From the NCBI GenBank assembly GCA_030272155.1, contig CP126203.1:3844001-3908000 (forward strand): DNA of 64,000 bases, written 5' to 3'. The position numbers and the translations under genes were made by a program. The notes beneath the pieces were generated by a model. That model searched no databases, was not told the origin of the DNA, and saw only the letters and a program-made list of their open reading frames with translations. This document shows positions 7,033-63,500 of the stretch, one piece after another. Numbering within the stretch: position 1 is the stretch's first letter; each line of letters opens with the position of its first letter. This stretch comes from Tetradesmus obliquus (lineage: Eukaryota > Chlorophyta > Chlorophyceae > Sphaeropleales > Scenedesmaceae).

Positions 7033-9538
7033 TTAAAGTGGCTTCTTGCTTGGTGTGCCTGGTGCCCGAGGGTACTTTGCTGGCGTGCTGCCTGTCTTAG
7101 TCACCACCACTGCTGTGCGCTGCCCCTCTGGGGCCCATGACTCCACCAGTTCTACTGCCTGCAGCTTGCCTCCCAGCTTGGCAAGAGCGGGTTTTGCAGC
7201 TGCCACTTCTTCCTGAAGGGGCAGATAGAAGGGGGCAGAAGCGGCATAATGTCAAAGACGCATGACGAAAGCAGAACAGCATGCTTGCCTCCCAGCTTGA
7301 CAAGAGCGGGCGCGGCAGCTGCCACTTCCTCCTGCAAGACATGTATAAAGGACAGCAGCAGCGTGTCAAAGCGCATAGCAACGGAGCAAAGCTGCCTTCC
7401 CTTGCCTCCCACTAGTGCTACCACTGCTGTGCGCTGGCCCTCTGGCGCCCATGACTCCACCAGTTCTACTGCCTGCAGCTTGCCTCCCAGCTTGGCCAGG
7501 GCTGGCTTGGCAGCAGCCACTTCCTCCTGCAAGGACATGGGACAGCAGACAGCAGCAACGCATGGTCAAGCTGCAAACTGTGCTGACAGATCTGCATGCA
7601 CAGGAATACCTCTGACTTCCAGAGATTGAAAAAACCTGTGACCTGGCCATGTTCCCACAACACGTTTTGTATCACGCAAATCCTGCACACTGCATCATGT
7701 TGACGCCAGCTTAGGTCCTCTGCTTACAGGTAGAAGGCAAAACTATGCAACCTCTTATCCACAACAGTATCACATGCCGTCAGTGCTTATGCTGACTTGT
7801 GAACTATTGATCACGCCCCACCCTGCAACAGTCGTAAACCGTCACTAAGCATAGCGAACAGATAACAGTCTGCTTGCACGTGCTGCTGGCAGCGTATCTG
7901 GTTGTGTGCTCCCTTTGCCACCACCCACACAGCTCGCCAAGCTGGACCAGCAAAATGTTACGCTGCAACTGTGATGCTTACCTGTGTGTTCGCTCCCTTG
8001 GCAGCCACCCACAGCCCGCTACGAAGATGCAAAAGGCAGGCACAGCACATCATGGAGATGTAATCGTGCATAATTTGCACTACCTGGGGGTTTGCTCCCT
8101 TTGCCACCACCCACAGCCCACCAGACAATGCGCAAAGCAGGCACAGCACATATTTGAGGCGGAAGCGTGCATAATTTGCACTACCTGGGGGTTTGCTCCC
8201 TTTGCCACCACCCACAGCCCACCAGACAATGCGCAAAGCAGGCACAGCACATAATTGAGGCGGAAGCGTGCATAACTTGCACTACCTGGGGGTTTGCTCC
8301 CTTTGCCACCACCCACAGCCCACCAGACAATGCGCAAAGCAGGCACAGCACATAATTGAGGCGTAATCCAGCATAACTTGCACGCACCTGTGGGTTTGCT
8401 CCCTTGGCCGCCACCCACAGCCCCCCGGGCTTCACAAAAGGCAGGCACAGCATACTATCAAAAGGTGTACTAAAGAATATCTTGCAAACATTGCTCGCAC
8501 CTGAGGGTGCGCTCCCTTTGCCGCTACCCACAGCCCGCCGGGCCTTACAAAGGGCAGGCACAGCTCTGACAGCACCCGCAGCTCAGCGACAGCACGCGCG
8601 ACAGCCAGGTCATACGCCTGCAGGCATGTGGCACATGTGAAACAGCCGAGATTTGGTGTAATTGAGACTTTCTAGTTGCACCTGGTCTGACCAGCTGGTT
8701 GCTTGCATGCTTGATGCATACATGCATGATGGATTGTGGCAAGTATGTAATGGCCAATTGACTGGGAGGGTGCAGTGCTGAAGGCAGGCACAGCTCTGAC
8801 AGCACCAGCAGCTCAGCAACAGCACGCGCAACAGCCAGGTCGTAAGCCTGCACATGTAAAGCGGCCAAGCAAAAGACAAACAGGATGTGGAAACGGGTTG
8901 TTGCGCCAGGCGCGTTCATATGCTCGTATGTGCAAACCATGTGCAAATGACGGGTGTGTGGCAATCAAGTGCTTGCCAGCCAACAGCCATACCACGGTGG
9001 TAGAGGGCATATGGGCTGGTGAGCACCGAGAATGTGCAGTTAGCAACAACAGCACAGCCTGGCCTGTCCAGCTGGCTTCACGGAGTGTCACTTACGTCTC
9101 TCAGCTCAGCCTTCCTGCCTCCCTCCTCGGCCCTGGCCCACACCACCATAACATTGTCCAGCCCTGCACAGCCACGACAAAGGAAAGCAGCGGCAACAGC
9201 ACACAATGATCATAACATATCAATTGCAGCCAACCAGCATGCTGCCTACACCTTGGACCCATTGTCCAGCCCTGCACATGGCATAGCAAGCAAACAGCAA
9301 GCAGAGCCAGCACACATCAGTCAGTAAAGCATGCTTAGAGTATCATAAGAAGATGTGAGCACCATGCCAGCTGATACTTGTGTAATTTTGCAAGCTTATG
9401 TGTGAGCACACAGATGACAACTCCAACGTCTGCAATCATCAAGGCGTCTCTGCTGTTGTCACCCACCCAGCATGTCTGCGCTCGCCTGCAGGAAGTCGCA
9501 GCGCTTGCGCAGAGAGTCAAGCAGCGTCACCTGGTGGC

Positions 9539-9579
<41 letters not shown>

Positions 9580-11501
9580 TGGGGGCAGCAGCAGCATACT
9601 TGGCACTGTTCATTGACAGGCACGTATCTGCAACTTGCAACGGCATTGGCTGCAGCAGCAACAGCACGCATGGATACTGCCCATGTACAGAACACAGGAA
9701 CCCCGTAAAAGCCACACACTGCATTGCTGGATCTGCACCAGCCAACACTTGCTCCTGCGAATGGCACTATCACACTACGCGGCATATGCACCTGGTCACA
9801 TGTCATGTGCACACCACCAGCTTCATGCACCACCACACAATGCACGACACAGAGCAGCCTAACACCTTGCTCACCTTCCAGTGTGGCCGTGCTACTGCCA
9901 GCACCATACCAGGCAGACCAGCGCCAGTGCCCACATCAATCACCCGCAACTGCTGCTGCTGCTGCTGCTGCTGTGCTGGCGCAGGTTTCTCTGCACTGTC
10001 GTCATCTGCTGCCCTACGACCTGTGCGCCGCACCCTGCTGCTGCCACTGCTGCTGGTACTGCTGCTGCCGCTGTTGCTGCTGCCGCTGCTGATGCTATTG
10101 CCGACCTTGCCGCTGCTGCTGCTGCTGCTGCTGCTGCTGCAGTAGCTGTCGATCACTGGCAGCAGCGCCAGGCTGTCCTCAATGTGGCGCTGCCAGGCCT
10201 CGTCAGGATCACGGATAGCTGCAGACATGCGGCACATGATCAATACTGTTGGCTTGGTTGACAACTTAGAGGGTTGTGAGTTTGGAACAATGCTACATCT
10301 GTACAGACATACGACTGCAATAACAGCTGTAACAGTGATGTGCTGCTGCCAGGCCTCATTGAGATCACGGACAGCTGCAGGCGTGCAGCACAAACTGACA
10401 TATCAAGGGTACGTTGATCATCATCAACACATATCTGTCCTCCAGATGCAGTATGTATTGTGTGTGCTACCACACACAGTACATATCAAGCATGCCCTGC
10501 AGTACAGCTGCCGCTTCCATTGCTGCAGCTAACGGTGTGCCTCACATGTGAGCTTCATGCATTCATCGTGGGGCAGGCTTGCACACTGCGTCACTGCTGA
10601 TGTCCAAGTGACCTGACTTGCGCCCGGAGCTGTGAGTCTGGTTTTCATGAACAACGCGTGCCTCACCTGTGAGGTTCATGCTCTTGTTCACCTCCAGCAT
10701 GTGGGCCAGGTAGCGCTGCAGCTGCTGTACCTGCTGGGGAGAAAGCAACTCTGCAAACAGCGCTTGACCACTGCTGCTGCTGCTGCTGCTGGACGCAGGT
10801 GTATGATCAGTGCTGTTGCCGGCAGATAAAGACTGCTGCGGTTGAAGACTGCTGCTGTCTTCCTGCTGTTGCTCTGTTACAGCCTGCTGCTGCTGCTGCT
10901 GTTTTGCAGCAACTGCGCTTCTTTCTGCCTGGGCTTGTGCGCTCACTTCATACCAGGCAGGGCCGTTCGCTGCAGCATCCTCATGCGATTGCTGCTGTTC
11001 TGCTGGTCCTTTTGCTGCTGCTGCTGCAGATTGTCTTGGTTGCCCAGCGGTGGACGGCTTTGCTGCTTTGCCTGAGCGGCTAAAACGGCTGCGCACCTGC
11101 CGGGATGGCTGTGCAGTGCTTCTGCTACGTCTGCTGTCGCTACTGTCTGTTTTATCGCGTGATTCTATACTGCCACTGAGGTTGTCATCTGTACTGCTGC
11201 TGCTGCTGCTGCGGCTGCCGTGCGGTCTGACTTGCTTGGCAGGTGCGCCAGCAAAAGCGCTGCTGCTGGTGCTGCCATCCTCTGCCAGTGACGCGTGTGC
11301 TCTGCGCGCGCCTCTGATGCTGCTGGCTGTGAGCCCAGAAGGTGTTCTGCTGCTGTTGTTGCCGGCAAATGGCATGGATGGCAGCACTACGGGTGTGGTA
11401 CATGGTGCACACCTGGACCAAACAGCTGTGTGCTGCAGTGTGGCAGGCACATGGACTCTGCACCCGGTGCTTGGATATGTAGAGATTTGTGCAAGCGACA
11501 T
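7033..11501 (-). CDS. rsmG: RsmG/GidB 16S rRNA (guanine-N7)-methyltransferase, probably plastid
   Basis: SAM-dependent methylation of the 530-loop guanine of 16S rRNA. Inferred exons (complement): 10667-11501, 9875-10218, 9467-9530, 9096-9163, 8501-8617, 7033-7212; total 1,608 nt, 535 residues, all phases consistent. Family hallmarks in order: [19 protein letters not shown]...[11 protein letters not shown], the SAM loop [62 protein letters not shown], and the very typical tail [19 protein letters not shown] roughly 270-residue Ser/Gln/Ala-rich N-terminal extension absent from bacterial RsmG starts with an Arg/Ser/Ala-rich segment that could be a plastid transit peptide (inference). A Ser/Gly run interrupts the protein before the SAM loop. 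Start at 11501 is the first in-frame Met of the open exon. Confidence 0.93.
7285..7530 (-). repeat. Two upstream copies of the RsmG terminal exon
   Basis: Copies starting at an acceptor CAG at about 7530 and 7340 (coding sense) repeat [15 protein letters not shown]. The first covers 36 codons, through QRTAVV, and differs from the real exon at 10 codons, all synonymous. The second is shorter and carries replacements. Confidence 0.9.
7975..8450 (-). repeat. Five tandem copies of the 3' end of RsmG exon 5
   Basis: The segment for [13 protein letters not shown] plus its GT donor recurs with matching positions at 7989, 8091, 8192, 8293 and 8395, after the parent at about 8508. Period 101-113 bp. 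The three middle units are nearly identical ([15 protein letters not shown]) and the outer ones more diverged. All keep CAG|GT at the right-hand end of the coding sense. Confidence 0.92.
8783..8852 (-). repeat. Acceptor-side copy of RsmG exon 5
   Basis: Repeats [13 protein letters not shown]...LSELCLP with its CAG acceptor upstream of the real exon; five codon differences, four synonymous. Related small copies lie at about 9250-9277 (exon 4 start), 10340-10372 (exon 2 start, reading [10 protein letters not shown]) and 10530-10556 (exon 1 end). Confidence 0.85.
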
Positions 11502-12071
11502 GGTTGACTATCTTTAAATTCCAGCAACCAATGTTGCTGCTGCTGCTGCTGCTGCTGCTGGTTGACCTGCTGCGCTCTGTCGCGGCCCACGTGCAGCCTT
11601 GCAGTACAAACAAACTAAATTAAAGGCAGCAGAAACCTTCACGGCTGGCCAGGTTGAAAGTTCGCGGTCAAGTGCTGTGCATCGCTGTACAGTATGGCAG
11701 GTACGCAACGACAGCTCGGCGGGCCACGAGCTGTTCACCACTGTGCTTGCAGTTCTTTGACGCTAACGGAAACCATGCTAGAAAATTTTTAACTTTACTG
11801 TCAGCACAAAGTGCTTCACCAAACCCTAAGTAGTTATAACAGGCTTCATCGGTAGAACTGTGAGCGGCTGCTCACATTGTACGTGTTGCACTCCATTGGT
11901 GATGCATGAGATAGCAAGGCGATGCTATCGACAAGTGAATTTGGTGCAATCACCTGTCGCAGGAGGCAAGCAGCTGGCCATGATGATCTGGCAACACCGC
12001 AACAGCAGTGGCCAGCTGGCGCAAGGGCCTGACGCAGCCTGATCCTTTTCAGGGTAGAAGCAACTTGCTTG
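11502..12071. promoter_or_regulatory. Divergent intergenic region between RsmG and the AP2 gene
   Basis: About 570 bp between two start codons facing away from each other, so it presumably holds both promoters. It includes a (CTG)n tract at 11530-11560 and an A/T-rich patch near 11780-11800. I see no clear TATA box. Confidence 0.45.
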
Positions 12072-15045
12072 ATGAGCTCATTATATGAGCATGTGAGCTT
12101 CTTTGAGCAGGCTAACAAGTGGAGGGCAAACTTTAGCAACAAGGGCAAGTTCAGTCTGGGAGGCCTTGGCCCTCTGCTGAACACGCCGCTGCGGCTCACG
12201 GAGCTGGAGGCAGCCAAGGATGCAGCCAGGCGAGTCATCAGGAGTGAACCTACATCATTGACGAAAGCAGTTTTAGAAGGATTCCTGAAGCTGAGGTGTA
12301 AGGCAGCAGCAGTAGAGAAGCTGCTGCTGCAATGCTGTGGCTTGAAAGAGGGCCTCAAGGCGATTTCAAGCCTCATGCATGCCATAGCATGCGCAGTAAT
12401 AACAAGCAGTCATATTCTCCCTGGTTTGAGATCTGTATGTGTACACGATTATGCTGATGTAGAGGTTGGCAATGTTGATTGCTTGCTGGGTCATTACAGC
12501 AGATGCTGGGCCCTGTGTAAAAAGAAGATACGCACGTGTAGCACTGCACCGGCCGCATGCAAGACTGGCAGCAGGGTGCAAGCAAAGGGAATTGTTAAAG
12601 TGTTGTATCGAAAAACCATGCCTGTTGGTTGATCATTTGCCAACAACAACTGAAAGGCGGTGTTGCTGCTGCGCCATCTCTGCTGCTGCTGCTGCTGCCG
12701 CTGCTGCTGCTGCTGCTGCTGTGCTGGTTCTCGCAACATCAGGGCGTCAGAGCATTTGTTGCTCTGATGCCTGCAATTCCTTTACTTGGGCTGTATTCTA
12801 TTTTGCTCGCCTTCCTCTCCACGAACCCACATTACCCCCGCCCCCCCCCCCCCCCACCCCACCCCCCCACCCCACCCCACCCCACACACACACACCACCC
12901 ACGCACCCGAACCCCACACACCACCCCCTTTCTGTGGCCCCTGCGCCCCTGCCCCCGCCACTCCCACCCCTGCTTCCAAACCCCCTCTCCGGTTCCCCGC
13001 GCCCCCCCCCCCCCCCCCCCCCCCCGTTGGCCCCGGCCCGCCCCCTTCCCCCGCCCTTTCCATCCCGTAGACCTCGCCTAGCGACGCAGATGTTGCATGG
13101 TGTGACCATCATTTCTCTTTCACTTGAAGGCACGGGCTCAGCACTGCCATACTGGCTCATATCACTGTATACAGACATTGGTGTAATCAATCTCGCATGT
13201 GTCTGGTCCCTCTCTCCCATGTCGCATAGACCCTGGCCCTTGCACCTGTCACCAGGGTCATCTATGTTGCGGAGGGTGAGCATGCGCTGGGCAACAACCA
13301 GACGCTCACCGCTGAAGACAAGGCGGCACTGGCAGGCAAGAGCCTGGAGCAGGTGTGGCGGGAGATCAAGGCCACTGGTGGTGGTGCCTTCTCCAGGGGC
13401 AAGAGCCGCTTCAGAGGCGTGAACTTATATACAGCCAAAACCAAATGGCGAGCACGTGTAAGTTGTGCTGGAAAACAGTCAAGAGTCGGTGACTGGCTCA
13501 CGGAGCAGGAGGCCGCACGTGCCTATGATGCTGCTGCACGTCGCATCCACGGCAGGTGGGTGCAGGCTGCTGGCATGCCTGTGGCTATCACGTAATTAGC
13601 TGTGCTGTACCGTGTGGCAGTTTAGCTGTGATATCTGTGTGCATTCGCTGCTTTGTCTGATATGAGACCTTTGCATGTAGCATAGCCTGAGCAAGCTCAT
13701 GAGCCTTGCATTGCCTGTTGAAATTTTTATTCCAGCAGCAGCAGCAGCGGCAGCAGCAGCAGCACAGCTGTGCCTGCTCTGCTTCACCAACAACCATGAC
13801 CTCTGCTTGTGGTGTGGGCTAAACCCTAAACCCTGAGCAGCCACCTAGGTCCCTGCTGCTTGATGTGCGTACCTAATGCATCCTCAGTGGGTCTTAGGAA
13901 TTAAATTTATTTCTTTTCTTGCTCATGCAGCGCTGCCCTTCTAAACTTTCCTGACGAGGAGGACACACCAGAGGCAGCAGCAGCAGCAGAAAGGGTGGTG
14001 GCCAAGCTGCGTGCCCTAGGCTGGCGGCCGCCACAAGAGGGTGGCGCAGCACCAAACCATCAAGCTTTGCGGCCAGGAGCAGCAATTGGTGCGGCAGGTG
14101 CAGGTGCAGGGGCACCACGGCAGCATAGCAGCAATCGCAGCAGTGCAGGCGGCGGCGCAAGCAAGCGGCAGCGCAAGCAGCAGCAGGCAAGCGCTGCTGA
14201 AGCCACTGCGGCTGCTGCCTCTGCCGATCCAGCAGCAGAAGAGCAGCAGCAGCAGCAGCAGCAGGATGGCAGCAGCGATGCTGCTCACCCCAACAGCAGC
14301 AGCATTGGCTTTGACATCCCGGACTGGTGGCCGGATGGTGATGATTCAGACCCAGACTGGTACTCTGATGTCGATGACAGTGATGATGCGGACTGGGAAG
14401 AGTGGCAGGACACCCAGCAGCAGCAGCAGCAGGAGCCAGGCCTGAGACAGCAGCAGCAGCAGCAGCGCCCGAAGCAGCTGGTCAAAGTCGACTCGCTGTT
14501 CTTTGACCCCTGCAAGCACAGCAGCAGTGACCTGGCGCTAGCAGCTTCCCAGGCCATGCGGCTAGCAGAAGAGGTGGCTGGTGCATGCCAGGGAGTGGCT
14601 GATGCAGCAGCCTTGATCAACAGTAAGTGCAACAACTAACTATATGAGTATGTGCAATTTGATGTTTTTCATCACACTGCGCAATTGCACTGCCTGACAC
14701 AAGCAGCGTATGCCAATGGTCTGAGGGTGGGAAGCAGCTGAATGGCAGCAGTGATCTGGCACTGGCAGCTTTTCAGGCGATGCGGCTGGCAGGGGGGGTG
14801 GATGCTGCGCCAGGGAGTGGCTGATGCTGCAGCGCTGGTCAACAGTGAGTACAGCGACGCGTTTTTGTACATTTGTTCAAGCTACTGCATGCAACAGCTA
14901 CTGCATGCGGGGAAGTGGCTGATGCAGCAGCGCTCATCAACAGCAACGTGTTATTTGTACAATTGGTCAAGCTTCTGCGTGTGAGGTAATGGCTGATGTA
15001 GCAGTGCTTGTCAACTGTGGGTGCCGCTGCTGACCTGGCACGTCC

Positions 15046-37365: not shown

Positions 37366-37981
37366 ATGGAGCTGCCGCCGGAAAAACAGGAAGCCGTTAA
37401 CAACAAGATTGCGAATGCCCTGGCAAACCGAGTTGACCGCATCCTGCTCGTGCTCGAGTGCTGCGCCGATAACAAAAACTACCTGGCCTGCCTGCGCACT
37501 TGCGACATCCTAGGGGTGCAGAATGTCTGGATTATCGAGGCTCCACTGCCAGTCAGGGGTGGCAGCAAGCAGCAGCAGCAGCAGCAGCAACAGCAACAGC
37601 CGCAGCAGCAGCAGGGCCTGCAGCAGGACCAACAACAACAGCAGCAGCAGCAAAGCAGCAGCAAAACACTGGCCAATGGCAGCAGTAGTTCGGGCTTACA
37701 GCACAAAGGTCCTGACAAGCGGTTGACCGTAGAGCAGGTGAGGTGTTGAATCGTTCAGGCACACAGCGGACGACACGCAGAAGCAGGTTGCATATTTGGC
37801 CTCACTTCGAGACATCAAGCATCATCAGCAACAGGGCCTGTCATCTCACGTTTGATATCCTTCGGTAAACTGCTGGCACATCTACATGCAAACAAAATGT
37901 CGATGGAATGGCTGTGCTGCTGCTGCCGCAGGGAAAGAAGAAGGGCTGCATGTCACGCGATAGCACTCAGTGCTATGATTG

Positions 37982-38044
<63 letters not shown>

Positions 38045-39255
38045 CTGCTGCTGCAGGGGAAAAAGAAAGGCCGCATAGCACGTGCTAGCACCCAATGGCT
38101 GGACGTGCGTGTGTTCACCAGCACCGCAGCAGCAGTGTGGGAGCTGAAGGCTGGCGGCTGGGCCATCTGGGCTACAGACCTGAACCCTGGCGCGGTGTCA
38201 CTGCTAGACCCTAGCCTAGAGGTGGGTGGTCATGTTGGTCCACCTGCTTTACTCTTGAAGAGTGGTGTAGTAGGTGTAGTGCATCATGGTGTTCTTTTTT
38301 GCATCGATGTGCTGGCATGGCCTGGCCTGGCTTGGACAATAAAAGATGTCCGCTACTGCTTTAAGCAGCAGTGCGAGAGCTGAGGGCTGGCGGCTGGGCC
38401 ATTTGGGCCACAGACCTTAACCCTGGGGCGGTGTCACTGCTAGAACCTAGCTTACAGGTGCGGCAGGGACTTGCTGTTGATCAGCTGCTGGGCACAGGCT
38501 GACTGTGGGAGCCAGCAGAGCTAAACAGCTACCACTACATGCCCAGGAGACACAAAGTTGTGAAAGAGTGTCAATGGCACAGCTGTGCATGACCCTGCAA
38601 CAAGCCAGCCTGGTTTTGCGGAGGCAGCTGGCTGGTTGCTTAGGGCAACTGGACGCTGGAACATCACAAACTTGCTGTGGTCGGCAGCAACGTTTGTTCA
38701 CCCGCTGCTTGCGTGCTGTTTTGTTCCCATCAGTCTTGCGCAGGAGTTTCATGGTTTGGCAACCTTGGTAAGCTGCGTTGTGTTGAGTTGTGTGCATCTG
38801 CAGGTGCCGCAGCAGCTGGCCATAGTGATGGGCGTTTTGTGGCACAACTTTGCTTGACCAATACAGCTGGCGTGATTGTCTGCAGGCAACTGTCCTTTTG
38901 GTTGTTGCCACTAGGTGCCTGGGACATTACAAACTGCTGTCTCAGCAGCAGAGTGAATTCATCAACCTATGCAGATATTGCATGCTTCTGCAACCTCAAT
39001 GATTTGTGATGTGTTGGCCTGTTGTCCTGTGCAGGTGCAGCAGCAGCTGGCCATTGTAATGGGCAGGGTTTCCTGCGCTGTTGGTACCAGTCCTGTGCTG
39101 CACAACGTGAATGCAACCTTTTAGAACTGTTGTCTCATGTTGCTGCCTGTGCGTCTATATGCAGGTGCCGCAGCAGCTGGCCATCGTGATGGGCAGTGAG
39201 GCAGCAGGCGTCAGCCAGGAGATGAGGCAGGCGGCAGACAGGTGAGCCAAAAATT

Positions 39256-39307
<52 letters not shown>

Positions 39308-39384
39308 ATAACACAGGTATCAGCCAGGCGTTGCACGGGGCGGCAGATAGGTAAGAGGGCAACAGCCAGCAGCAGCACTGCAGA

Positions 39385-39440
<56 letters not shown>

Positions 39441-39892
39441 AGATGTACCAGATGATCCAGGCAGTTGGCTGCTGCTGCCAGGTCAGCTCTGAACATAACA
39501 GCTGTTACTTCTTGATTATGCTGCAAACCGCCTGGCTAAACGCTTTGAAAGTAGCACAATATGCTCACTCACCAACCCCATTCCACGTTCCTCCACCTGC
39601 ACTTTGCTGTTGCAGGTGCGTGTATCTTCCCATGTATGGTTTCACTGAGAGTCTCAACGTGTCAGTAGCTACCGCGCTGGTCCTACAAACCCTAATCGCC
39701 AGGCAGCCAGCTGTACGGGGCCAGCTGTTAGGAGAGGGCAGGGCGGCACAGCTGGAGGCCAAGTGGAGGGCTGCTGCTGCTCGGGCGCCTGAGTGCCAGG
39801 CGGGGGCGCTGCATGTTAAGCAGCAGCCGCAGGAACAGCAGCTGGACGAGCAGCTTGTGCATAGTGAAGGAGTGCAGGGGAACGGGAGCTAG
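37366..39892 (+). CDS. TrmH/SpoU-type (SPOUT) RNA 2'-O-ribose methyltransferase
   Basis: SAM-dependent ribose methylation of tRNA or rRNA. Exons: 37366-37737, 38057-38221, 39165-39241, 39616-39892; 296 residues, phases consistent. Domain signs in order: LLVLECCADNKNYLACLRTCDILGV (motif 1 with the N-x-x-x-x-x-R-T segment), a Gln-rich insert of about 50 residues, WELKAGGWAIWATDLNPGA, QLAIVMGSEAAGVSQEM (motif 2), and LPMYGFTESLNVSVATALVL (motif 3, which forms the knotted SAM site). This order and the N-x-S-V-A motif match TrmH. Bacterial TrmH modifies G18 of tRNA; the substrate here is not determined. The C-terminal tail is Ala/Gln-rich. The exon edges are duplicated several times (separate entry). 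Confidence 0.9.
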
Positions 39893-40100
39893 CAGCCACC
39901 AAGCAAGGAGATGATGCAGAAGTGTCTTCCCTGTACTAGCGGGGCCAGCTGCTAGGAGAGGGCAGGGCAGCACAGCTAGAGGCAAAGTGGAGGGCTGCTG
40001 CTGCTCGGGCGCCTGAGTGCCAGGCGGGGGCGCTGCATGTGAAGCAGCAGGCGCAGGCTCAGCAGCAGCAGTTGCAGGTGGAAGAGCAGCAAGTATAAAA
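37918..40100 (+). repeat. Exon-edge copies in and after the TrmH-type gene
   Basis: Copies found: exon 2 start at 37918-37962; exon 2 end at 38365-38460 (RAGGWAIWATDLNPGAVSLL plus GT donor); exon 3 start at about 38803-38835 and 39036-39060 (VPQQLAIVMG with acceptor); and the exon 4 tail at about 39935-40097, beyond the stop. That last copy repeats GQLLGEGRAAQLEAKW for 37 codons with five differences, all synonymous, then runs to its own TAA at 40095-40097. Confidence 0.88.
37982..38043. repeat. (CTG)20 run before a splice acceptor
   Basis: Uninterrupted CTG triplets ending 14 nt before exon 2 of the TrmH-type gene. Similar runs lie in the next intron at 39257-39303 (AGC) and 39388-39440 (CTG). 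Confidence 0.95.
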
Positions 40101-40739
40101 GTGCAGGCCTGCAAGGGAATAGCAGTTTGTCAGCAGTGTTCGGCAAGATTCTACGTTGAGGCTGCAGCCCCGGGCAGTACAGCCCAGCAAAGTATAGCCC
40201 GAGTAGCAGGTTGCTGCAGCAACAGCAGCGCAGTTTTTGGAAATCAGTTAAATACCATCAATGTGTTCCTCAACGGCGTATGCTCTTGACTGCAATGTGC
40301 CTGATCATTGAAGTGGCGCATGGTGGGGTGTGAGCAGTACAAGAGCAATACCCACCACTGCCCTCGGCGTGCTTGCGATGTGTGAGACACATTTCAACAC
40401 GGCTTTGGTGTTGGCGTAGGTTGGCGGTGTTGCAGAAGTCATGAGAGTCTCATATGATACAGATGCCCTGCTGCTGACAAGGGCTTTGGCAGCAGCAGAA
40501 CAGTGACAATGTGCCCAAGTGCGAGCCTTGAACAGAAGCACGGCTGCACCATGCTACTTATTTATGCATGCGAGTCGTATAAAGTCGCGGTCAAGTTTCC
40601 AAGACACGCACGCTCCGAGATCATCAGCCTGGGCCCTGCAATTTGTGCTTCGTCTTTCTACGTGCGCAGCAACTAGCAGAGTTCGTCCATCTTTGATCAG
40701 GCCCCCACGCAAGTAGTACCTTCATATACATTCGGACCA
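40101..40739. promoter_or_regulatory. CSN7 upstream region with TATA-like box
   Basis: TATAAAG at 40578-40584, about 156 nt before the CSN7 start codon, is a candidate TATA box. No other gene seen in this interval. Confidence 0.45.
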
Positions 40740-43700
40740 ATGGACACAGAAGCCAAGCTGCAGCAGTACCTGCTGCTGGGCAAGAGTGCAAAAGGCAGAA
40801 GCATGTGCGAGCTCATAACCAAAGCAACCGCGGAGCCGGGCCTATTCACTTTCGGAGAGCTGTTAGACCTCCCAAACGTACAAGAAGTAAGGGTGTCTGC
40901 TCGCAGCTAGGCATGCTGCTGCTGCATCCTGTGCTGTGTTTCTCACAGCTACTGCTGCTGTCTGTGTCCTGCAGCTACAAGCAGAGTTTGCGGCCTTCCG
41001 GGCGCTGCTAGAACTGTTCTGCTATGGCACATACCCGGAGTATCAGCGTGAGTGGCGATCTGCTGCACATGCTGAACAGCAATGCAGACGGTGCTGTGCT
41101 GTAGTTGCTGCAGTACTGCCTCGTGCACTTGTCCTGCAAGCTGTGCATGCACGCATGCAATGCCTTGTTACATGCATATTTGCACTGCTGCACACCATTG
41201 TACGTGTTTCTATGTCGCGCTTGCAGCATTGCGCCTACCCAACTCGTGAGCCATGCGTGCCGCAACAACAGATATGTGTAGGGTCGACATTGTACGCAGA
41301 CGCAACCTGTCCATATCTCCACAGATCCTGCTGCGGCTGCTTCCGCCACCCCCACTGCTGCTGCTGCTGCTGCTGCTGTTGTTTAATCCTGCAGAGCACA
41401 AGGCCAGCTTGCCGCCCCTCACGCAGCAACATGAGCTCAAGCTGAAGCAGCTGACAGTAGCATCGCTAGGGTCGCAGCAAAAGGTGGGGAGGGCGCCGCA
41501 GACTGCAGTTGCAGCAGCGGGAGCCGGGCAGCAGCATCAGTGCGTGCAACAATTGTGGTTTGGTGCTGGCTTGGAGTTTTCGGTTCTGCAGGTTGTCGAC
41601 TGGCAGGCATAGCAGAGGCAGCAGGGCGCGCAGCAGCGCAAGACACATGCAGCATTGTTGCAGGGGTACAGCAGCACTGTGAGCAGCATTGTTGCAGTGC
41701 TGTGGAGCGCTGCCGTGCCAAAGCAGCAGATGCAGCAAGCGTGCTACGCGGTGCACATGTGCATGCACGCGGCCACTTGGATCTCAAACACTCCTGTCTC
41801 ACCATTGGCTGCTGCTGCTGCCGCCGCTGCAGGTGCTGCCGTACGAGCTGCTGCAGGGCGCGCTGGCCGCACTTCCTTTGCTGGGCAAAACCGACGATGC
41901 AATGCTGAGTATTTCTGTGCTGCTGCTGCAGCGGCTGCGGTATGAGCTGCTGCAGGGCGCGCTAGCCGCACTTCTTTGCTAGGCAAAGCCTGTGATGTAA
42001 TACAACGCATTTGTTTGACTGCTGCTGCAGGTGCTGCCGTATGAGCTGCTGCAGGGCGCATTAGCCATAGGCACTGTGAGGGACCTGGAGGACTTCATCA
42101 TCAGCGACTGCTTCTACGCAGGTGCGTGGGGGTTTATTTCTGGTACAGCCTCATTATGGCCACACGCAAATGCAACTGTATTTGGGGGTTAGACATGCAA
42201 GCAGTCACTTACGCCTGTGATCAAGGCACCCTTGCTTAGCGGTTGTCAAACGGCCTGGCTGCAGGCAGCTGCAACAGCTGATCTTGGTTTCATCAATGCC
42301 AATGCGCATCTGGTGTTTGCATTGGCAAGCGCAGCTGTCCTAGTAATACTGCACATGAATGTCTGCTGTGCTGCAGGCCTGGACACGGGCAAGCTGGACC
42401 AGCGGCAGGGCTGCCTGCAGGTGCACGTCGTGGCAGCACCAAAAACAATGCACAATCGCACATGTACATGCATTCTGTCTGCTGTGCTGCAGGGCTGGTG
42501 ACGGGCAAGCTGGACCAGCGGCAGGGCTGCCTGCAGGTGCACGACATAGCCAGCACATATGTCTGCATTGACACAACACAATGGTCCATGCTGTTTGCTG
42601 TGCTGCAGGGCTGGTAACGGGCAAGCTGGACCAGCGGCAGGGCTGCCTGCAGGTGCACGACGTGCCAGCACATGCATTTGAGTCAAATCAAAAGTCAAAG
42701 TAACACAGTTGTACAATCTTTGCTGTGCTGCAGGGCTGGTAACGGGCAAGCTGGACCAGCGGCAGGGCTGCCTGCAGGTGCATGATGTGGCCAGCAGGGA
42801 CGTGCGCCCGGCTGAGGCGCGGGGGCTGGCTGACGCACTCAGCAACTGGTGCGTGCATAGCAGTGCGGTCAATGCGCAGCGAACACACTTGGCTGTTGCT
42901 GTGGCGTGTACATGCACTTGTGGTTTGCTTGACTGTAGTTGACTGAGGTGTTGTAGGAATGCTGGCTGCAATTGTGGCAAGATCTTTATTTCCAATTCTG
43001 GGCTGAGTGTGGCAAGCTAGCGCCAGTGCTGTGCAACCAGGTGCTGTAGGCACCTGCTGGGTACTGTCGGGGATGGCTGGCTGCCGCTGTGACGCAGCTA
43101 GGTGCTTGCCCCTGAAAGAATACCCAAAACATGCGGCTAGCTTGTGCTGGTGCTGACAGGTGTGTTTAGGCGCTCCTCTTGTGCTGGTGCTGACAGGTGT
43201 GTTTAGGCGCTCCTCTTCCTGCTGCTGCTGCTGCTGCAGGCTGGCCACTGCTCAGGTGCTGCTGGGCAGGCTTGAGTCAGAGGCTACAAATGCGTCCGCT
43301 GCTGCTGCTGCCGCTGCCAGCCGGCGGCGTGAGCTGGAGAGCAGGCAGGAGGAGCTCAAGAAGAACCTCAAGGTGTTGTCCTGATATTATGTATCATACT
43401 GATCAAGGATTTGCAGATGACAATGATAATATTAACATTAACTACTATCATCGATTACAATATTCGGTAACACCGATATAATGATGATATGAATGACGAT
43501 AGTGAGTGAACCTCAAGAAGGTCATGCGCAGCCCAGAGAGATCCCTGCTCTGTGTCACGTGCCGTTGATTGTCAAATTCTACATCCTTTCAAAAGCTGCG
43601 GCTGCTGCTGCTGGTGCTGCTGCTGCTGCTGCTGTTTCACAGGTTGAGCTGGAGCGCTCCGGTGATGCCGGCATGCTGCTTGACGATGCTGGCGGCTATG

Positions 43701-43786
43701 ACGTGATGGATGATGACCGCATCATGATGGGAGGGACCTCGGGCGGCCCTGGGCCAGCTAGCTTGATGAACAGGTCGAAGAGGTGA
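40740..43786 (+). CDS. CSN7: COP9 signalosome subunit 7 (PCI-domain protein)
   Basis: Subunit of the CSN complex that removes NEDD8 from cullins, in cytosol and nucleus. Exons: 40740-40886, 40975-41047, 41227-41245, 41408-41483, 42031-42121, 42734-42848, 43240-43372, 43643-43786; 798 nt, 265 residues, phases consistent, close to the human and plant lengths. Family landmarks in order: EPGLFTFGELLDLPNVQ, FCYGTYPEYQ, RLPNSLPPL, ELKLKQLTVASLGSQQKVLP, RDLEDFIISDCFYAGLVTGK, LDQRQGCLQVHDVASRDVRP and ADALSNWL, which follow the PCI core of CSN7 closely. A charged helix (RRRELESRQEELKKNLK) precedes an acidic, Gly-rich tail ending NRSKR. The 19-nt third exon is very small but needed to join RLPN to LPPL. 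Its neighbours do not belong to the complex. Confidence 0.93.
41830..42652 (+). repeat. Acceptor-side copies of CSN7 exons 5 and 6
   Basis: Exon 5 start (VLPYELLQGALA) is copied at about 41832-41875 and 41925-41990. Exon 6 start (GLVTGKLDQRQGCLQ) is copied three times at 42377, 42493 and 42609, before the real exon at 42734 (spacing 116, 116, 125 bp). Each exon 6 copy is 44 nt between a CTGCAG acceptor and a CAG|GTGCA donor-like site. Confidence 0.93.
43147..43220 (+). repeat. Tandem 37-bp direct repeat before CSN7 exon 7
   Basis: Two adjacent copies of a unit containing TGTGTTTAGGCGCTCCTCTT just before the pyrimidine-rich acceptor of exon 7. Confidence 0.85.
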
Positions 43787-43839
43787 GGCGGCTGCTGTTT
43801 TTTTGCTTGTGTGTCATTAGTATTGTCATAACGTGTTGG

Positions 43840-44090
43840 TTGGTGGTTATGACGTGATGGATGACGACCGCATCATGATGGGAGGCACTTCAGGCGGCCC
43901 TGGCCCTGCTAGCTTGATGAACCGGTCCAAGAGGTGAGGCGCGGCTGTTGCTGCGGTTGCTGTTGTGTCAATGATATTGTCATAAGCTTGTTGGACGGTG
44001 GTTGCCTGGGGGTGATGAGCTGATGATGGGGGGGGGGGGGCATCAGGCGGGCCTGGCCCAGCAAGCCCGATGAACATGTGAAAGAGATGA
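43840..44090 (+). repeat. Two downstream copies of the CSN7 terminal exon
   Basis: The copy at about 43846-43938 reads GGYDVMDDDRIMMGGTSGGP, then GPASLMNRSKR and stop: exactly the parental protein, with 10 synonymous codon differences and no replacement. A third, decayed copy lies at about 44000-44085 and contains a run of G. Confidence 0.93.
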
Positions 44091-51855: not shown

Positions 51856-54415
51856 TCATTCAATGCGCCGCCGCGTGGCTTGCGGCCTCAAGCCTACCCG
51901 CTGCCTGATCACATCCATTGCTGCATCAGCCATCGTTCCATTCTCATCCTCAGGCGCAATCCAATGCCGCAGCTTGAACATGCCCTGCCGCACAACCGCC
52001 TGCCGCGGCGGCACGTGAATGCTGATCGCGTCAGGGTTCAGCAGCGCTGCCGAAACGCTAAACATCGAGTTGCTCATCACCAAAATATCTGCGGTCGCCA
52101 TCATCTGCCAGGTCCACAGGAGATCTTTTCCGGGCAGCATGACTGCATTGGGGATGCCGCGCTTCAGGGTGTGAAGCTCCTCCACCATCTCGGGGGTCCT
52201 GGGAGTTTCAGTGTGAACTTCCACCGTGTACTGGCAGCCAGCAGCCTCCAGCACCTGGGAGCAAGGACAGCATACATTTCATGGACAGATTTTGCCAGCA
52301 GTCATGGCAGCAATCAACGGATGGTGGGTTTCACTTGATGTGTTGTAATCCTACAACAAGGGGAACAAGATCTTGCCGGCTGCTCATTGCAACAACTGTG
52401 GTACTTGCAGCCAGCAACCTTCAGCACTGAGGCAAAGCATGGAATCAGGCACGGCACATTCCATTGTCAGGCACGGCAGATCCAATGTCAGCGCTGGTCA
52501 GCAGCATACACATCAAGGCAAGCGTGATGTACTACTGTTGCTGCTGCTGCTCCCACCTGTATCGCAGCAAAGCTGCTGTTACATCAGCCATTGTTTTGAA
52601 CGTACCTCAGTAACGGCCCGTGCGAGGTTTATATAGTATTGTGTGGACAGGATGCGCTCGCTCCAGCCGTCAGTGACGACATCGCCTCGCCTGATGTGGA
52701 TGGCGAAGCGCAGCGCATCCAGCATCCACGGCTTGCTGTGCACGCCTGCACTGCTGCTGCTGCCGCTGCCGCTGCTGCTGCTGCTGCGGCAGGTCAGTGG
52801 TGGCTGCAAGCATGAGACCAGTGCAGGTGCATTACAGGCAGCAGGGGTGGCAGGCAGATGGGCATGTCGTCCGCTCTTACCGCCTGGCACGTTGCTAATG
52901 AGCAACTGCAGAACCTTGAAATTCTAATGGATTTGAACTCCGGAGACCGGATCCAGTCTCAGCTGCTGCAGCAAATAGAGCACTGCCACCAAGCACATGA
53001 ACGATCCCTGAAAACTACAATTCAACCCCGCTCCATAACCCCAAGTCTCACCAGTGGCTCGCTGGGCCGCAGCTGTGGCAGTGCATAGAACAGGTCAGGG
53101 TAGGTGGTGGTCAGGCTGTTCACACCTTGAGCCAGTTACTGCAAACCCTAAACCCTTAAACCTTAGCCAAGAGCCCTGCTCTCACCAGTGGCTCGCTCGG
53201 CCGCAGCTGAGGCAGTGCATAAAACAGGTCCGGGTAGGTGGTGGTGAGGCTGTTGACGTGCTCCGCAAGGAACAGTGTGGGCTGCTGCTGCTGCACCGCA
53301 TCGCCCAGCTCGCCCAGGAACTTCTCCCACTTGAAGGACTCTACACATTTGCAGCAGCAGCACAGTAAGATGGATGGCAACATGGGCATGAATCTGCTTG
53401 TTATTGAGTGTTGGTGGCGAGAACAGCAGTGACAAAAACACGACAGTGGTAGCACAGCAGGTTACACAAAAGGTGAGTTTCAGGATATTGGCCTGCATTG
53501 CCCAGCTCGCCCAGAACTCCCATTTGAAGGACTCTGCAGTTACAGTTGGAAGTAGGAAAACCTTGGTCAGCGGTCATCACGGAATGCAGCAAGCTTAGGA
53601 GATTTGAGCCCTGCTGCACCTGCTCACCTGCTGGAACCAGCTGCTGCTCCCTGCCTGTCACAGCCGCTTCCTCACTTGCAGAGTGCAGCTCAATCAACTG
53701 CCTACGCCAGGTGCCGCAAACATCCTGCTGCACTTTCTCACCTGCACGCACCAGCTGCTGCTCCCATCCCAACACAGCTGCCTCCTCGATGGTTGATGCC
53801 AGCTCAATCATAGATCTGCGCTACATGCTGCAAACATCTTGCTGCAGAAACCCTGCTGCAGTGTCTCCCCTGCTCGCACCAGCTGCTGCTCCCAGCCCTC
53901 AACAGCGGCTTTCTCAAATGGTGGAGGGCAGCTTGATCTCCTGCTCACGCTACCTGCAGTCAACACCTTGCCGCCAAAACCCTGCGGCACTGCTGCGCTT
54001 GCTCACCTGCGCGCACCAGCTGCTGCTCCCAGCCCGACACTGCTTCCTCCTCAATAATGGATGGTAGCTCAATCATCTGCCCACGCCAAAATGCCACAAA
54101 CACCCTGCTGCATAAACACTGCTTTATTGCTGCACCCACCCACCTGCGCGCAACAGCTGCTGCTCCCAGCCCTTCACAGTTGACTACTCAATCGTGGAGG
54201 GCAGCTCAATCCCCTGCTCACACCAAATGCTGCAAACACCCTGCTGCCCAAACACTGCTGCACTGCTGCACTCTCTCACCTGCACGCACCAGCTGCTGCT
54301 CCCAGCCCTCCACAGTTGATTCTGCAATTGTGGAGGGCAGGTCAATCATCTGCCGCGCCCGTGACAGCAGCCGTGCATCGTCGCTGTCACCACTGAAGTC
54401 ACAGGAGGAGGACCT

Positions 54416-57189: not shown

Positions 57190-60100
57190 ATGTCCAAGAT
57201 GGGGCAATTCTTTCAGCAGGTGCTGCACCTACGCAAGTCCAGTACTAGCAGCAACGACAAGGAGCAGCCGCGAACAGCATCAGGAACATCTGCAACTTCG
57301 CCCAGCAGCAGTACCACTGCTGCTGCCGATGAGCAGCAGCAGCAGCAACAGCAGCCACGCCCTGGCAGCAGCAGCAACAGCAGCAACACGGAAAATGCAG
57401 AAATCAGCAGCCAGCAGCAGACAGATGCCTCTGCTGGCAGTGCAGGCAGCTGCAGGCAAGCACAAGATGCTGGCCCGTTGTTCCTTGATGTGCAGCATGA
57501 GGCAAATGGCACAACAACAACTGTAGCAAAGGAGCAGCAGCAGAGGGAGGCGCTTGCAGAGAGCCGGTCCGCCCCGTTGCCGGCAGTCCCATCAACAGCC
57601 AAGGCAGGCATGCTAGCTCCTGCAGCAGCAGCAGCAACAGCAGAAGCAGCAGCAGCAGAAGGAGCGGCAGCAGCGCCGGCCAGTGCTGGCAGCGGTGGCA
57701 GCAGCAGCGGCGGCAAGTCTCCTGGCCCCGCAGCAGCAGCAGCAGCAGCAGCAGTGACGCCCAAGGCGGCTGGCGGCAGCGGCAGCAGTGTCACATTCAG
57801 CCCCAGCTCCCGCTCTGTGTCAGCGGGGCGGGCAGCAGGCCTGTCGAGGCGCAGCATGGGGGCACTGTCACTCACACACAGCCTTGCAAATGACAGCTTT
57901 AAGGTGGGTATGTGGATGCGGGTTGCGGGCAATAGGGTTGATGCCAGCAGAGCAAGCCAATGCGAGATCGTGTCGCATGCTGATGCCTTCAGTTCACCTA
58001 AAGTTCACATATAACATGTTACATTGTCATATGACATGTTATTCTTGCAGGTGCGCGTGGGCATCTGTGCCATGGACAAGAAAGCTAAGAGCAAGCCGAT
58101 GCGCGAGATCGTGTCGCGCCTGGAGGCCAGTGGCGAGTTTGAGATCGTGGGCTTTGGGGACGAGCTCATTTTGGGAGCGCCGATTACGGAGTGGCCGCGC
58201 GTCGACTGCCTCATGTCATGGTACAGGTGAGCCAACAAAGTGCGCCTGTGGGTGGTGTTGGCATGCTGTGCTCTGCACGGTCTGTTTGTTCATACAGCAA
58301 GCAGCATCCTACAGCATCCTACAGCATAACCACGGCACAAGTGTGCAGCACGTTCACAGCAAGCTTGCTTAAGCATCTTGCAGTAACGTTTGCTCACCCT
58401 AGGTTTGGCTCTGCTCACGTTGCCTCCCTGCAGTGACGGCTTCCCCCTGACCAAGGCGCAGGCGTATGCAGACGCCACCCGGCCCTTCCTCATCAACGAC
58501 CTACACATGCAGGTGAGTGCACCGTATGGCTGCATGGCGGAATGATATCTGGGTGACAGCAATCTCTGCTAGATGTGCAGGGCGGGCTTCTGCCTGTAGC
58601 TTTGCCTGGAGGCGCATGCAAAGCGCCCCTGCGCGGTAGTGTTGCAATGCAGTAAGAGCTGGTCAGTAATGCTTGGTGTTGTATCAATACATCAAGGTCA
58701 GTCAACTCAGTAGTATTATGTTTTAGCAAAACATTGTTACAGCATGTTATGTGCGTTACTGGTTACGCTGCAATGCCAAAATAAGGTGTACTGCCTCCCG
58801 CAACAGCACAGCATTGCAGTGCCTGCGCCATACATATCTTAAGAGCACGTACAACATACTAACATTCTCACAACGTGTCATAACATGCACTGCAGGACGC
58901 GCTGCAAGACAGGCGTGAGGTGTACCGCCTGCTGCAGGAGCATGGCATTGCGGTGCCTTCACACATCGTGGTGGACAGGGACGGCTTGGAGCCTGGCGCA
59001 GACCCTCCTGGCTTCATCGAGGAGGTGAGTTATGTTTGATACCATGCGCATGTGCCCTCCCACATTGTGGTGGACAGGGACGGCCTGGAGCCTGGCGCAG
59101 ACCCTCCAGGGTTCATCGAGGAGGTGGCGTATGTTTGGCCATGCCCAAGTATTTTCCGCTGGTAGGTGTTTGCGTGATGGCAGGGGTGTGTGCGGCTGCT
59201 TTGACACACAACCCGCCACACATTCTGTGCCCTCTGGGATGTTGTCTTCAATCACTGATATTCTATCTGCCCACAATCATCTGCTCGCAGGAGGACTATG
59301 TTGAGCTGGGCGTGCACGCATCCCAACGGCGCTGTTAGACAGATGCTAGTCCTCAAAGACCTCCCAAACTGCTGCCCCTAAGCTCGCACCGCTTGCAGGA
59401 GGACTGTGTTGGGTGGGCGGCATGTGCATTGATAAGCAATCAAGGCACAAGCTGTCATCTAACCAACCCGTGGCTGCTGATGAACATTTAAAACTGATTA
59501 CAGGAGGACTATGTGGAGCTGGGTGGTGTGCGCATCGACAAGCCGTTTGTTGAGAAGCCGGCCAGCGGCGAGGACCACAACATACACATCTACTACCCGC
59601 ACAGCATGGTGAGGCACTGGGGTGTTGAGTTGAGATTGCCACATCGCACTGTCTGGTGCCTGACGTGGCGTCCTGCTTCACGTAACGCCATGCTACTCTG
59701 CCCTTGTGAGCAGCAGCAATCGTCGTCGTGCATGTCCAATGATAATGATAATAGTCTTCTTGTAAGCCATACCTTATCGGCATGTCTATGTTGCCAGGTA
59801 CAGGCCACCTGCCGTGCAGCCCTTTCAGCGCATGCATTGCCTCGTCACCCCACATGAAACATTATCAGCAATGTACTCGCATGGCAGTACTAAATTCCAG
59901 CTCGTCCGTGTGGTGTTGCTGTCCTGTGGCAAGCACTACACACAGCTTGCTACATCTGATCTTCGTGATTTGACATTGGCACCGTGTTGCTGTGCTGCAG
60001 GGTGGCGGCGTGAAGCGGCTGTTCCGCAAGGTGGACAACAAGAGCAGCTGCTATGACCCGCACCACCCTGGCACAGTGCGCAGGTAAGTGATCATCTGCT

Positions 60101-60489
60101 GCGCACACATGCACCTAGTAGTTCAGAGCTGCGGCTGCTTCTGCTCCTATTATCTGTGGCCGGCGCATGCGATGCTCCCTGCTAACGCGCAACACATCCA
60201 CATGAACATGTAGCACAGCTGTGAGGTAGGCACCAACCAGGTCGGAACTGGTGCTCTGCGTTTGTTGCTGCAGGGACGGCAGCTTCATCTACGAGGAGTT
60301 TCTGGCCACTGGCGGCACTGACGTCAAGGTAGGCACGCACGATCCTGTACTGATGTTTGACAGCAGAGATCCCCATGATCACCAAAGTTTGATCTGATCA
60401 GTGTACTTCCCCACCGTTCCGATTCTCACCCTTCATCTTCCTTGTCCCGCTCTCCAGTCTGTGCCTTACGCTGCTGCTGCTGCTGCTGC

Positions 60490-60542
<53 letters not shown>

Positions 60543-63500
60543 CCAGGTATACACCGTAGGGCCCCGTTACGCTCATGCGGAGGCGCGCAAGTCGCCCGTG
60601 GTGGACGGCCGCGTGCTGCGGACAGCAGACGGCAAGGAGATGCGCTTCCCTGTGCTGCTGAGCCCTGCAGAGAAGGAGATCAGCCGCACAGTATGCCTGG
60701 CGTTTGGACAGAAGGTGGGCCTGCAATGAGTACGGTTGTGTTGTTTGTTGTGCACACAGGCAGTGGCTGTTGGGGCCCTCTGCACAGCACGGCATGTGCA
60801 TGCGCTGCTATCTCAGTATGTATGTCTTTGCATCTCATTGCTCAGCAGCATCGCCCAGCTATAAGTCCAAAGTTGTAACTGATGCCAGTTTCATCAACTG
60901 CACATGCGCCGCAGGTGTGCGGCTTTGACCTGCTGCGCAGCGAGAAGGGGCGCAGCTACGTGTGCGACGTCAACGGCTGGAGCTTCGTCAAGAACAGCCG
61001 CAAGTATTACGACGACGCGGCAGGTGAGCACAGCGGTCGTTTGGTGCAGATTTGTTTGCTGTCTCACTTGGACGTGTGGGCTGCTTGCTGCCTTGGGTTG
61101 CTGCACGTGATAAGTGCTGCCCGATCCCTGATGTTTCTGCTGAGAGACGCGCTCACACGGTCATGCATCATGCGTCATGGGTAGCACCATCCTCACCCAC
61201 CCCAGCTTGCTGCACTGACTGCGATTCTGCCGCACCGCTGCTGTTTTCTTTCCTTTTTGTCAACAAACAGGCATCATGCGCAGCACAATATTGGCTGCCC
61301 TAGCACCCCACAGACTGGCCCTGGCACCCCCCTCAGGCAGTCCCCTCTTATTCGGGCTGGGCCTGTCATGCCAATGCTGCTTAGAACATGAACCGCATGA
61401 AACTCGTTTGTTTGTACTTCCAATCTGACCGTGTGTTTGTTGCTGCCTCTTTTTCTGTGGTCTGTCTGCAAACAGGTATTATGCGCAGCACCATCCTTGC
61501 AGCCCTAGCACCCCACAGGCTGGCTCTGGCACCCCCCTCAGGCAGCCCCCTCTCATTCGGCCTGGGCCTGTCGCCAGCACAGCAGAGCGCAGCAGCAGCA
61601 GCAGCGGCGGCAGCAGGGTACGATGACGTGGCAGTGGCTGCTGCTGCTGCCGGGTATGACGAGGAGTCCCTGGGCATGATGCGCAAGACGGCGTCACTGC
61701 AGGTGCGTTATATTGCTATGTTACATTATCTGCTCACTTGCCACAATCTATGTAATGTCAAATAGTCACCGTTGGTCTGCCTTTGTGAAGCTGCTGCAGC
61801 TGCTGTGGACCAATGCTCACAACTGTGTGTGTCAATCACAGAGAAAGCAGTTGTGCATGCCATACAAGCCAAAGCTGCGCTCACTGCTACCACCTTCCCA
61901 CAACCCTAAACGGCCAACAACCGTGCCACTTAGCAGGAGCTGAGCAGCCTCATGGCTCAGCTATCTGGCGTTGATCTGCTAGAAGCCACGCGCACTGCTG
62001 CTGCTGATGCTAAATCCAACCACCAACATCATCTCACAAGTCCCACTGCCTTGGCTAAACCCTGCAGGAGCTGAGCAGCCTTTTGGCTGAGCTATCCGGC
62101 GTTGATCTGCTGGAGGCCACACACACTGATGAGCGCTCCAGCCTGCCATGTCACATATACTACCTGAACTCTTTTTCACAGCTAAATCATGTTGTTTACT
62201 GCTGAACCCTGCAGGAGTTGAGCAGCCTCATGGCTGAGCTATCCGGCGTTGATCTGCTAGAAGCCACGCGCACTGCTGCCACCGCACAACCTGCTGTAGT
62301 TACTTGTACTGTTTGTTGAACCCGTTATTCTACTGCTACACCCTGCAGGAGCTGTCCAGCCTCATGGCTGAGCTGTCAGGGGTGGATCTGCTAGAAGCCA
62401 CCCGCACTGATGAGCGCTCAACTCGAGAGGAGCTGCGCTGCGTGCTTGCTGTTGTGAGGCACGGTGACAGGACGCCCAAGCAGAAGCTCAAGGTGAGGAA
62501 AGCAGAAAGAATCTTGGGGCTGCTAGCTACATGAGTGCATGCTTGTTTGTGTGATGCACAATTTTGTGTGCTTCACAAGTCAGGAGCTGCGCTGCGTGCT
62601 TGCTGTTGTGAGGCACGGTGACAGGACGCCCAAGCAGCAGCTCAAGGTGAGGAAAGCAGCAAACTTATTTGGGCTGCTAGCTACATCATTGCATGCTTGT
62701 TTGTGTGCTTCACGAGTCAGGAACCGCGCTGCGTCCTGGCAGTGGTGAGGCACGGCGACAGGACACCCAAGCAGAAGCTCAAGGTGAGCTCATGGCAGCC
62801 GATTCAGTGCGATATATGCACGCATAGTGTAAAGTTACGGCACAAAATGTGTACATCTACACAATGTCGCTGCTTGACGCACCTGTGTTGCTCAATGCTG
62901 CGGCTGCATCGTCCAACTGCAGGTGCGTGTGCAACGGCCCGCTGCGCTGTTTGCCAAGACTCCAAAGGGAAAGCAGGCCAGGCGCAAGAGCCTCTATGCT
63001 GTTGTTGTCTGTCTTGCAGCAACAAAGATCTGTGACATCCAGTTATCACAGAGGATTGACACAGGATTTACAGAAACTATGTACAGATTCTCGTATGACA
63101 AGTCCGATGATTCTCATTTCAAGTCACCAATTGCTTGATGTATGTCTTTGCAGGTGCGCGTGCGACAGCCTGCGCTGCTGGCCCTGTTTGCGAAGCACGC
63201 CGACCCTAAGGGCAAGCAGGCCAAGCTGAAGAGCCCCGCACAGCTGCAGGAGCTGCTGGACATATGCAGGAGCACGCTGGCGGTGCGTTGTGTGGCAGGG
63301 GCGAGTGCCATACGTGGAGACACTGTGCAGCATATTGCCGGTCAGCTGGTGTATGCAAGCATCAAACATGGGTGTGCTAGGTAGCTGTCTTGCGAGAGTC
63401 AAAAAGTGGCCTGCCTGAGGAGGCCGGGCATGCAAGGATCACTCACCCGAGCATCTTGCTGAAACATGTGGCTTCATCAGACTGTTTTAGGCTTTGTTTG

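Follow-up and report, generated by a model that had tools for sequence, protein, structure and literature searches.

Mutually exclusive tandem exons are similar exons that lie side by side and carry silent differences, and pseudo-exons, or decaying exon duplicates, form a second class with which additional exon pieces in introns may be compared. A related mechanism is intron gain through tandem genomic, or internal gene, duplication (e.g. PMC4974935), which likewise involves short, same-strand, local duplications within genes that are tolerated through splicing. In addition, PMC12636532 presents the alga Auxenochlorella UTEX 250 as an allodiploid hybrid, in which the two coding lineages of one nucleus could supply diverged exons. 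Here we report on exon copies in a window of 64 kb (the whole stretch analyzed, C13:3844001-3908000) of the Tetradesmus obliquus assembly, the whole genome of which comprises 104.66 Mb in 17 contigs. Many exons carry broken copies of one of their ends, in the same direction, in the neighbouring intron. We tentatively regard these copies as dead tandem duplications that straddle one splice site, together with a minority in which the silent differences date from a time when both sequences were coding, a reading to which we give slightly less than even confidence.

Self-comparison of the window reports 82 local repeat pairs, nearly all plus/plus and close by, and a further twenty segments of 10 kb, placed at fixed positions across all 17 contigs, returned 0 to 19 pairs each; local tandem duplication is therefore genome-wide. 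Many of the arrays are phase-flat, both in the window and in random loci, indicating that duplication is not confined to exons. The exon copies are on the same strand as their parents and mostly within a few hundred bases of them, random loci included. Upstream copies nearly always start at the first bases of the parent exon and bring its acceptor (5' part), and downstream copies end at its last bases with the donor (3' part), the exceptions being two brief matches to mid-exon sequence (VIP1 exons 2 and 4). At least one copy was found at 10 of the 20 exons tested (VIP1 exons 2-13 and eight ATG11 exons). This one-end pattern is explained if random duplication is tolerated only when one whole exon survives. 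A duplication across one splice site would leave the gene working, since the full exon would be kept and the extra piece would lie in the intron or behind the stop codon; pieces upstream would then carry the 5' end together with an acceptor, and those downstream the 3' end together with a donor.

Codons differing between copy and parent were re-derived by alignment and scored as replacement (N) or silent (S), and a mismatch-phase test, independent of any gene model, was applied to the pairs. A first-pass annotation of the window had proposed, from ten pairs, that the copies differ from their parents almost only at synonymous sites. Clean pairs do exist, such as 7106/7420 and 53046/53180, the mismatches of which fall in the three phases as 0, 9, 0 and 6, 0, 0, respectively, but no general rule emerges from a set in which the reading frame was picked by codon usage alone and cleanness was ignored. 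This set covers the window and 23 loci (294 kb), of which four were picked for kinase matches and none for copies; two satellite loci, L019 and L020, were excluded from the coding-frame filter onward. From 229 pairs, 74 were coding-like, and the 57 that were non-redundant once overlaps had been removed yield N465.5:S345.5, an N fraction of 0.574 against the 0.58 expected for a free copy of a constrained parent. The pooled ratio of replacement to silent divergence (pN/pS) is 0.34 in the window (19 pairs) and 0.50 outside it (37 pairs; 0.55 if one paralogous pair in L015, omitted here, is kept), the latter being the value expected if constraint acts on the parent but not on the copy. In 18 random 10-kb loci, 115 pairs have four or more mismatches, and 7 of them show a phase bias at p<0.05, no more than chance would give, versus 13 of 64 in the window; the window is thus an outlier, chosen for looking odd. 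The first-pass annotation had itself warned that it chose the cleaner pairs, and the unbiased set and the random loci confirm that this selection carries much of the effect. These results agree with the explanation that every copy is dead and has decayed neutrally since the neighbouring exon was duplicated, hand-picking in an odd window having produced the silent-only list.

As a complete account, this explanation is rather unlikely when confronted with a second set. Since the coding-frame filter admitted wrong frames and lost clean pairs (e.g. the one at 61258), this set was built on exons from genes recognized through homology or Pfam, those of VIP1 and ATG11 being placed with a predicted protein of a relative or of this assembly; the T. 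obliquus protein OEZ86_009334 maps to the window at near identity, and the assembly is very probably that of record OEZ86. After removal of 24 low-complexity or very short matches (N29:S1), which lowered the totals from N152:S201 to N123:S200, the homology set contains 60 copies of 29 exons, of which 53 are non-identical to their parents (N106:S189). The N expected for free copies was computed in two ways. Matching on silent changes, a severe standard for free copies, gives 197 N, an observed/expected ratio of 0.54 (bootstrap over exons 0.41-0.70), with 15 of the 53 copies at p<0.05 and 12 at p<0.01. Matching on total changes gives 184 N and a ratio of 0.58 (bootstrap 0.45-0.72), with 14 and 9 copies below the same thresholds. 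Both upper bootstrap limits thus stay below 0.75, and 9 to 12 copies reach p<0.01 where about 0.5 would be expected by chance. The deficit persists without 8 of the pairs of the first-pass annotation (N99 versus 143 expected when total-matched or 150 when silent-matched), although just 3 copies then remain at p<0.01. The effect size is likely overstated, because the exons of other loci and some of those in the window entered the set on account of a pair noticed there, and because the window was handed over as odd. The free-copy expectation therefore fits the codon-usage set as a whole and fails for 9 to 12 of the 53 copies in the homology set. Taken together, the copies behave as freely decaying dead fragments, and most of them would be neutral; about ten old copies stand apart in having preserved their amino acids.

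Table 1. Parent exons and their copies in the window (N, replacement; S, silent; p values for the deficit of N).
Feature	Position	Strand	Observation
Two 3'-part copies of ATG11 exon	4907..5131	-	N4:S9 and N2:S8
ATG11 (PF04108) exon, parent	5150..5302	-	as in OEZ86_009334
RsmG terminal exon, parent	7033..7212	-	preceding exon of the GidB family; peptide presumably the RsmG C-terminus
Second 5'-part copy of RsmG terminal exon	7283..7331	-	N2:S2
5'-part copy of RsmG terminal exon	7420..7526	-	N0:S9; p 1.6e-5 (silent-matched) or 1.5e-4 (total-matched)
Array of six 3'-part copies of RsmG penultimate exon	7904..8451	-	nearest N2:S7; three alike N7:S4
RsmG penultimate exon, parent	8501..8617	-	GidB family, alignment
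5'-part copy of RsmG penultimate exon	8783..8847	-	N1:S4
TrmH/SpoU-type exon, parent	39623..39841	+	as in OEZ85_000808
3'-part copy of TrmH tail	39940..40065	+	N2:S5, both N near end of match
CSN7 terminal exon with stop, parent	43643..43786	+	csn7 of Scenedesmus sp. PABB004
3'-part copy of CSN7 with stop, after the parent's stop	43841..43937	+	N0:S10; p 1.2e-6 (silent-matched) or 1.1e-5 (total-matched)
Third CSN7 copy, in-frame stop	44033..44090	+	N4:S6
3'-part copy of glycosyltransferase-type exon	53052..53123	-	N0:S6
Glycosyltransferase-type exon, parent	53186..53335	-	family name from the first-pass annotation; alignment
VIP1 exon 4, parent	58896..59024	+	VIP1 of Scenedesmus sp. NREL 46B-D3
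Adjoining 3'-part copy of VIP1 exon 4	59052..59123	+	N0:S6; unit ~99 bp, TGA within the 27-base intron head
5'-part copy of VIP1 exon 10 (parent 61475-61702)	61270..61367	+	N1:S10
Three 5'-part copies, all carrying their own acceptor, of VIP1 exon 11 (parent 62349-62492)	61937..62290	+	
Two 3'-part (RHG) copies of VIP1 exon 11	62582..62783	+	N1:S0; N1:S7 (copy at 62719)

Eight of the ten pairs proposed at first were found again with roughly agreeing counts, and for two, called 'AP2 exon 7' and 'ATG11 exon 10', no matching pair was identified. The copies of CSN7, VIP1 exon 4 and the glycosyltransferase-type exon came out free of replacements as claimed, and so did that of the RsmG terminal exon with nine silent changes instead of ten (Table 1). 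The silent excess was also recovered for the RHG segment and for VIP1 exon 10, the latter with ten silent changes next to its single replacement where eleven had been counted. For the TrmH tail, the five silent changes were re-derived, but the two replacements near the match end had been missed; similarly, the VIP1 exon 11 copy at 62215 retains its seven silent changes and adds three replacements, all in the last four codons, where the copy runs out. The statement that other copies carry replacements and stops holds for the RsmG array and the third CSN7 copy. The CSN7 label was right, the gene being placed at about 40.8-44.1 kb. TrmH-type and CSN7 genes adjoin at 37366-44090 of the window, and a single csn7 model of Scenedesmus sp. 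PABB004 spans both; gene order is therefore conserved, and the PABB004 model is probably a fusion of two genes. In VIP1 exon 4, the intron head matches within the duplicated unit. A second VIP1 gene, on the minus strand of C2 (L038, C2:5808001-5817000), exhibits one-splice-site copies and arrays at several exons, and its 10 copies (N15:S13) have an N:S near the free-copy value.

The age of the copies was assessed from the adjoining introns of 41 copies of at least 15 codons, splice bases being skipped. Under the softer scoring used here, a strict-scoring test having been mostly without signal, intron similarity drops as silent divergence rises (rho -0.55, p 2e-4), the trend being less clear for replacements (rho -0.28, p 0.07). 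The flanks of the 21 low-S copies align past the exon edge with a median z of 3.5, as compared with 0.4 for the 20 high-S copies. Since flank similarity tracks silent divergence, the latter is clock-like, which makes the silent-only copies old. Some silent-only pairs (CSN7, VIP1 exon 4, the copy at 62215 and RsmG) nevertheless have a flank that still aligns at 59-67% identity. No drift of codon usage was detected in the copies, the 12 silent-only ones being no worse than their parents (Wilcoxon p 0.13).

If we assume that the copies arise as by-products of short tandem duplications that occur locally and often, the parent would be filtered to silent changes and the copy would decay freely, a combination that alone gives a pN/pS near 0.5. 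In a minority of old copies, the amino acids would have been kept although the neutral DNA beside them decayed. Their silent differences most likely predate the death of the copy and would stem from at least two coding lineages, either diverged alleles or hybrid parents, which unequal exchange may later have set side by side; alternatively, the parent exon itself may have been overwritten by exchange, with the intronic piece staying behind. Beyond the structure, counts and age ranking of the copies, which were observed directly, a diverged-lineage origin of the silent-only minority would be the best of several weak readings. A bolder version, possible but doubtful, regards the introns as holding fossil fragments of deeply diverged coding lineages, whether from hybrid ancestors of long ago or from a former population of extreme diversity; every silent-only copy would be a piece of another allele, frozen beside an exon since replaced by exchange.

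The search for a source of the silent differences bears on the suggestion, already made at first pass, that the copies derive from a diverged allele or paralogue. For the paralogue, the five exons searched in the genome returned only local matches, with no locus closer than the parent. For the VIP1 RHG segment, the C2 paralogue matches the copy at 88% over 60 of 70 bases versus 89% over 70 for the parent, and is thus not closer; for exons 4 and 10, this paralogue was rejected as an outgroup because it is too diverged. For the diverged allele, which we prefer for the residue, several observations weigh against us. OEZ85 would be the sister haplotype of OEZ86, and its TrmH protein differs from that of this assembly by one substitution and the length of a Q-run in 295 residues and agrees with the parent at each of the four sites where the TrmHb copy carries a replacement; no donor lineage was seen, the OEZ85 protein matching the parent and not the copy in the one gene checked. 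In another protein, OEZ85 and OEZ86 are ~2% different (by eye), whereas silent-only pairs have a silent divergence (pS) of roughly 0.3-0.45, a level to which the two records do not point. Several silent sites show a different base in each of three copies, for which two lineages are insufficient. The silent-only excess is weak in the loci outside the window (16 copies, N36:S35, versus 44-46 N expected), and only 3 of the 9 copies at p<0.01 fall outside the first-pass list. Lastly, most of the testable silent-only copies could be spliced in phase, as detailed below. A break in pS values separating young from old pairs was considered as proof of allelic origin and rejected, as the homology set shows a range.

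Another of the first-pass suggestions, that the copies are translated in some transcripts, can be formulated more precisely: the silent-only copies would be shorter alternative exons of minor transcripts, spliced through a new site on their truncated side, and would be under purifying selection. Judged from the genomic sequence, we hold this to be unlikely. It would directly explain why amino acids are kept while silent sites and intron decay, and an in-phase second splice site is present in 6 of the 8 testable silent-only copies (4 set aside). However, such a site is also present in 12 of 20 other copies (2 set aside), a comparison in which numbers are too small to show enrichment. The glycosyltransferase copy at 53052, the ATG11 copy at 4907 and the CSN7 copy at 43841 are each preceded by a single AG in an open stretch and in phase; for the latter, the AG lies 21 bases upstream and opens a possible in-phase alternative end behind the parent's stop. 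In contrast, the VIP1 exon 4 copy at 59052, located 27 bases after its parent, is preceded by an in-frame TGA without usable AG, and a copy outside the window (L016, 7105) is frameshifted by a 1-base deletion. None of the low-p copies amounts to a whole exon flanked by both homologous splice sites; all are partial, with one exon end each, and a protein using them would lose the other part of the exon. In both predicted proteins compared, OEZ86_009334 and OEZ85_000808, the sequence is that of the parent exons. Indirect selection through gene conversion or array contraction was rejected by argument, as it would erase the silent differences too.

The third suggestion was that coding exons change faster at silent sites than their copies. 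If silent sites of working exons evolved several times faster than neutral DNA, differences would accumulate on the parent and produce silent-only pairs without any constraint on the copy, and the three upstream copies of VIP1 exon 11 are indeed closer to each other than to the parent. This explanation is nonetheless improbable: the introns beside silent-only pairs have decayed too, and the differences in the RHG segment, polarized with the C2 paralogue in an alignment read by eye, split into four on the parent and four on the copy (3 silent, 1 replacement). The rate required is, by estimate, about six-fold, and no excess is observed outside the window.

Regarding ploidy, a T. obliquus strain is described as diploid with extensive heterozygosity in PMC12636532, and a phased diploid genome of T. 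obliquus UTEX 3031 is credited to Biondi et al. 2024 in papers citing it (PMC12636532, PMC12899622, PMC12301720, PMC11314372). The draft genome of strain DOE0152z measures 208 Mb, compared with about 109 Mb for UTEX 393 (PMC5552973), and UTEX 3031 is given as a subclone of DOE0152Z in PMC7955037. Pieces of a second haplotype stitched into one sequence, a possibility that this background invites and that had been raised at first pass as collapsed haplotypes, are nevertheless scarcely credible as the source of the copies, given that no base N occurs in the first 20 loci, that OEZ85 and OEZ86 look too similar for a pS of 0.3, with a near-identical TrmH protein, and that multi-copy arrays display graded decay.

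Several loci outside the window provide further views of local duplication. A young array in L021 (2627-2959), made up of identical copies of a ~137-base unit over a GTPase-type exon, is an example of fresh duplication. The C-terminus of glutamate-cysteine ligase, including the stop codon, has a copy behind the parent's stop in L008 (5515-5585; N2:S1). L020 (1-10000; C17:1000001-1010000) consists of a tandem array with a 4,282-base period and 100% identity, and L019 contains a satellite of ~279-base period (1-3959) and a second array with a unit of ~350 bases (4086-6042).

If the diverged-lineage reading is true, intronic exon fragments would date past allele divergence or hybridization without a second genome, and under its fossil version one haploid assembly would record lost diversity. 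If the copies are translated, algal gene models would miss short alternative exons. Either way, abundant intronic exon fragments can mislead gene prediction as well as pseudogene and dN/dS screens. As compared with mutually exclusive tandem exons, the copies described here are partial, lack the opposite homologous splice site and are in some cases broken. They resemble decaying exon duplicates in the pN/pS of ~0.5 of the whole set and in some stops and frameshifts, but differ in that a minority retains its amino acids despite its age. Unlike in Auxenochlorella UTEX 250, a second diverged lineage was not seen for the copies. Lastly, in contrast with intron gain by tandem duplication, the copies lie inside existing introns or the 3' untranslated region and make no new exon, and each carries one parental splice site, an arrangement encountered at half of the exons tested in two genes.

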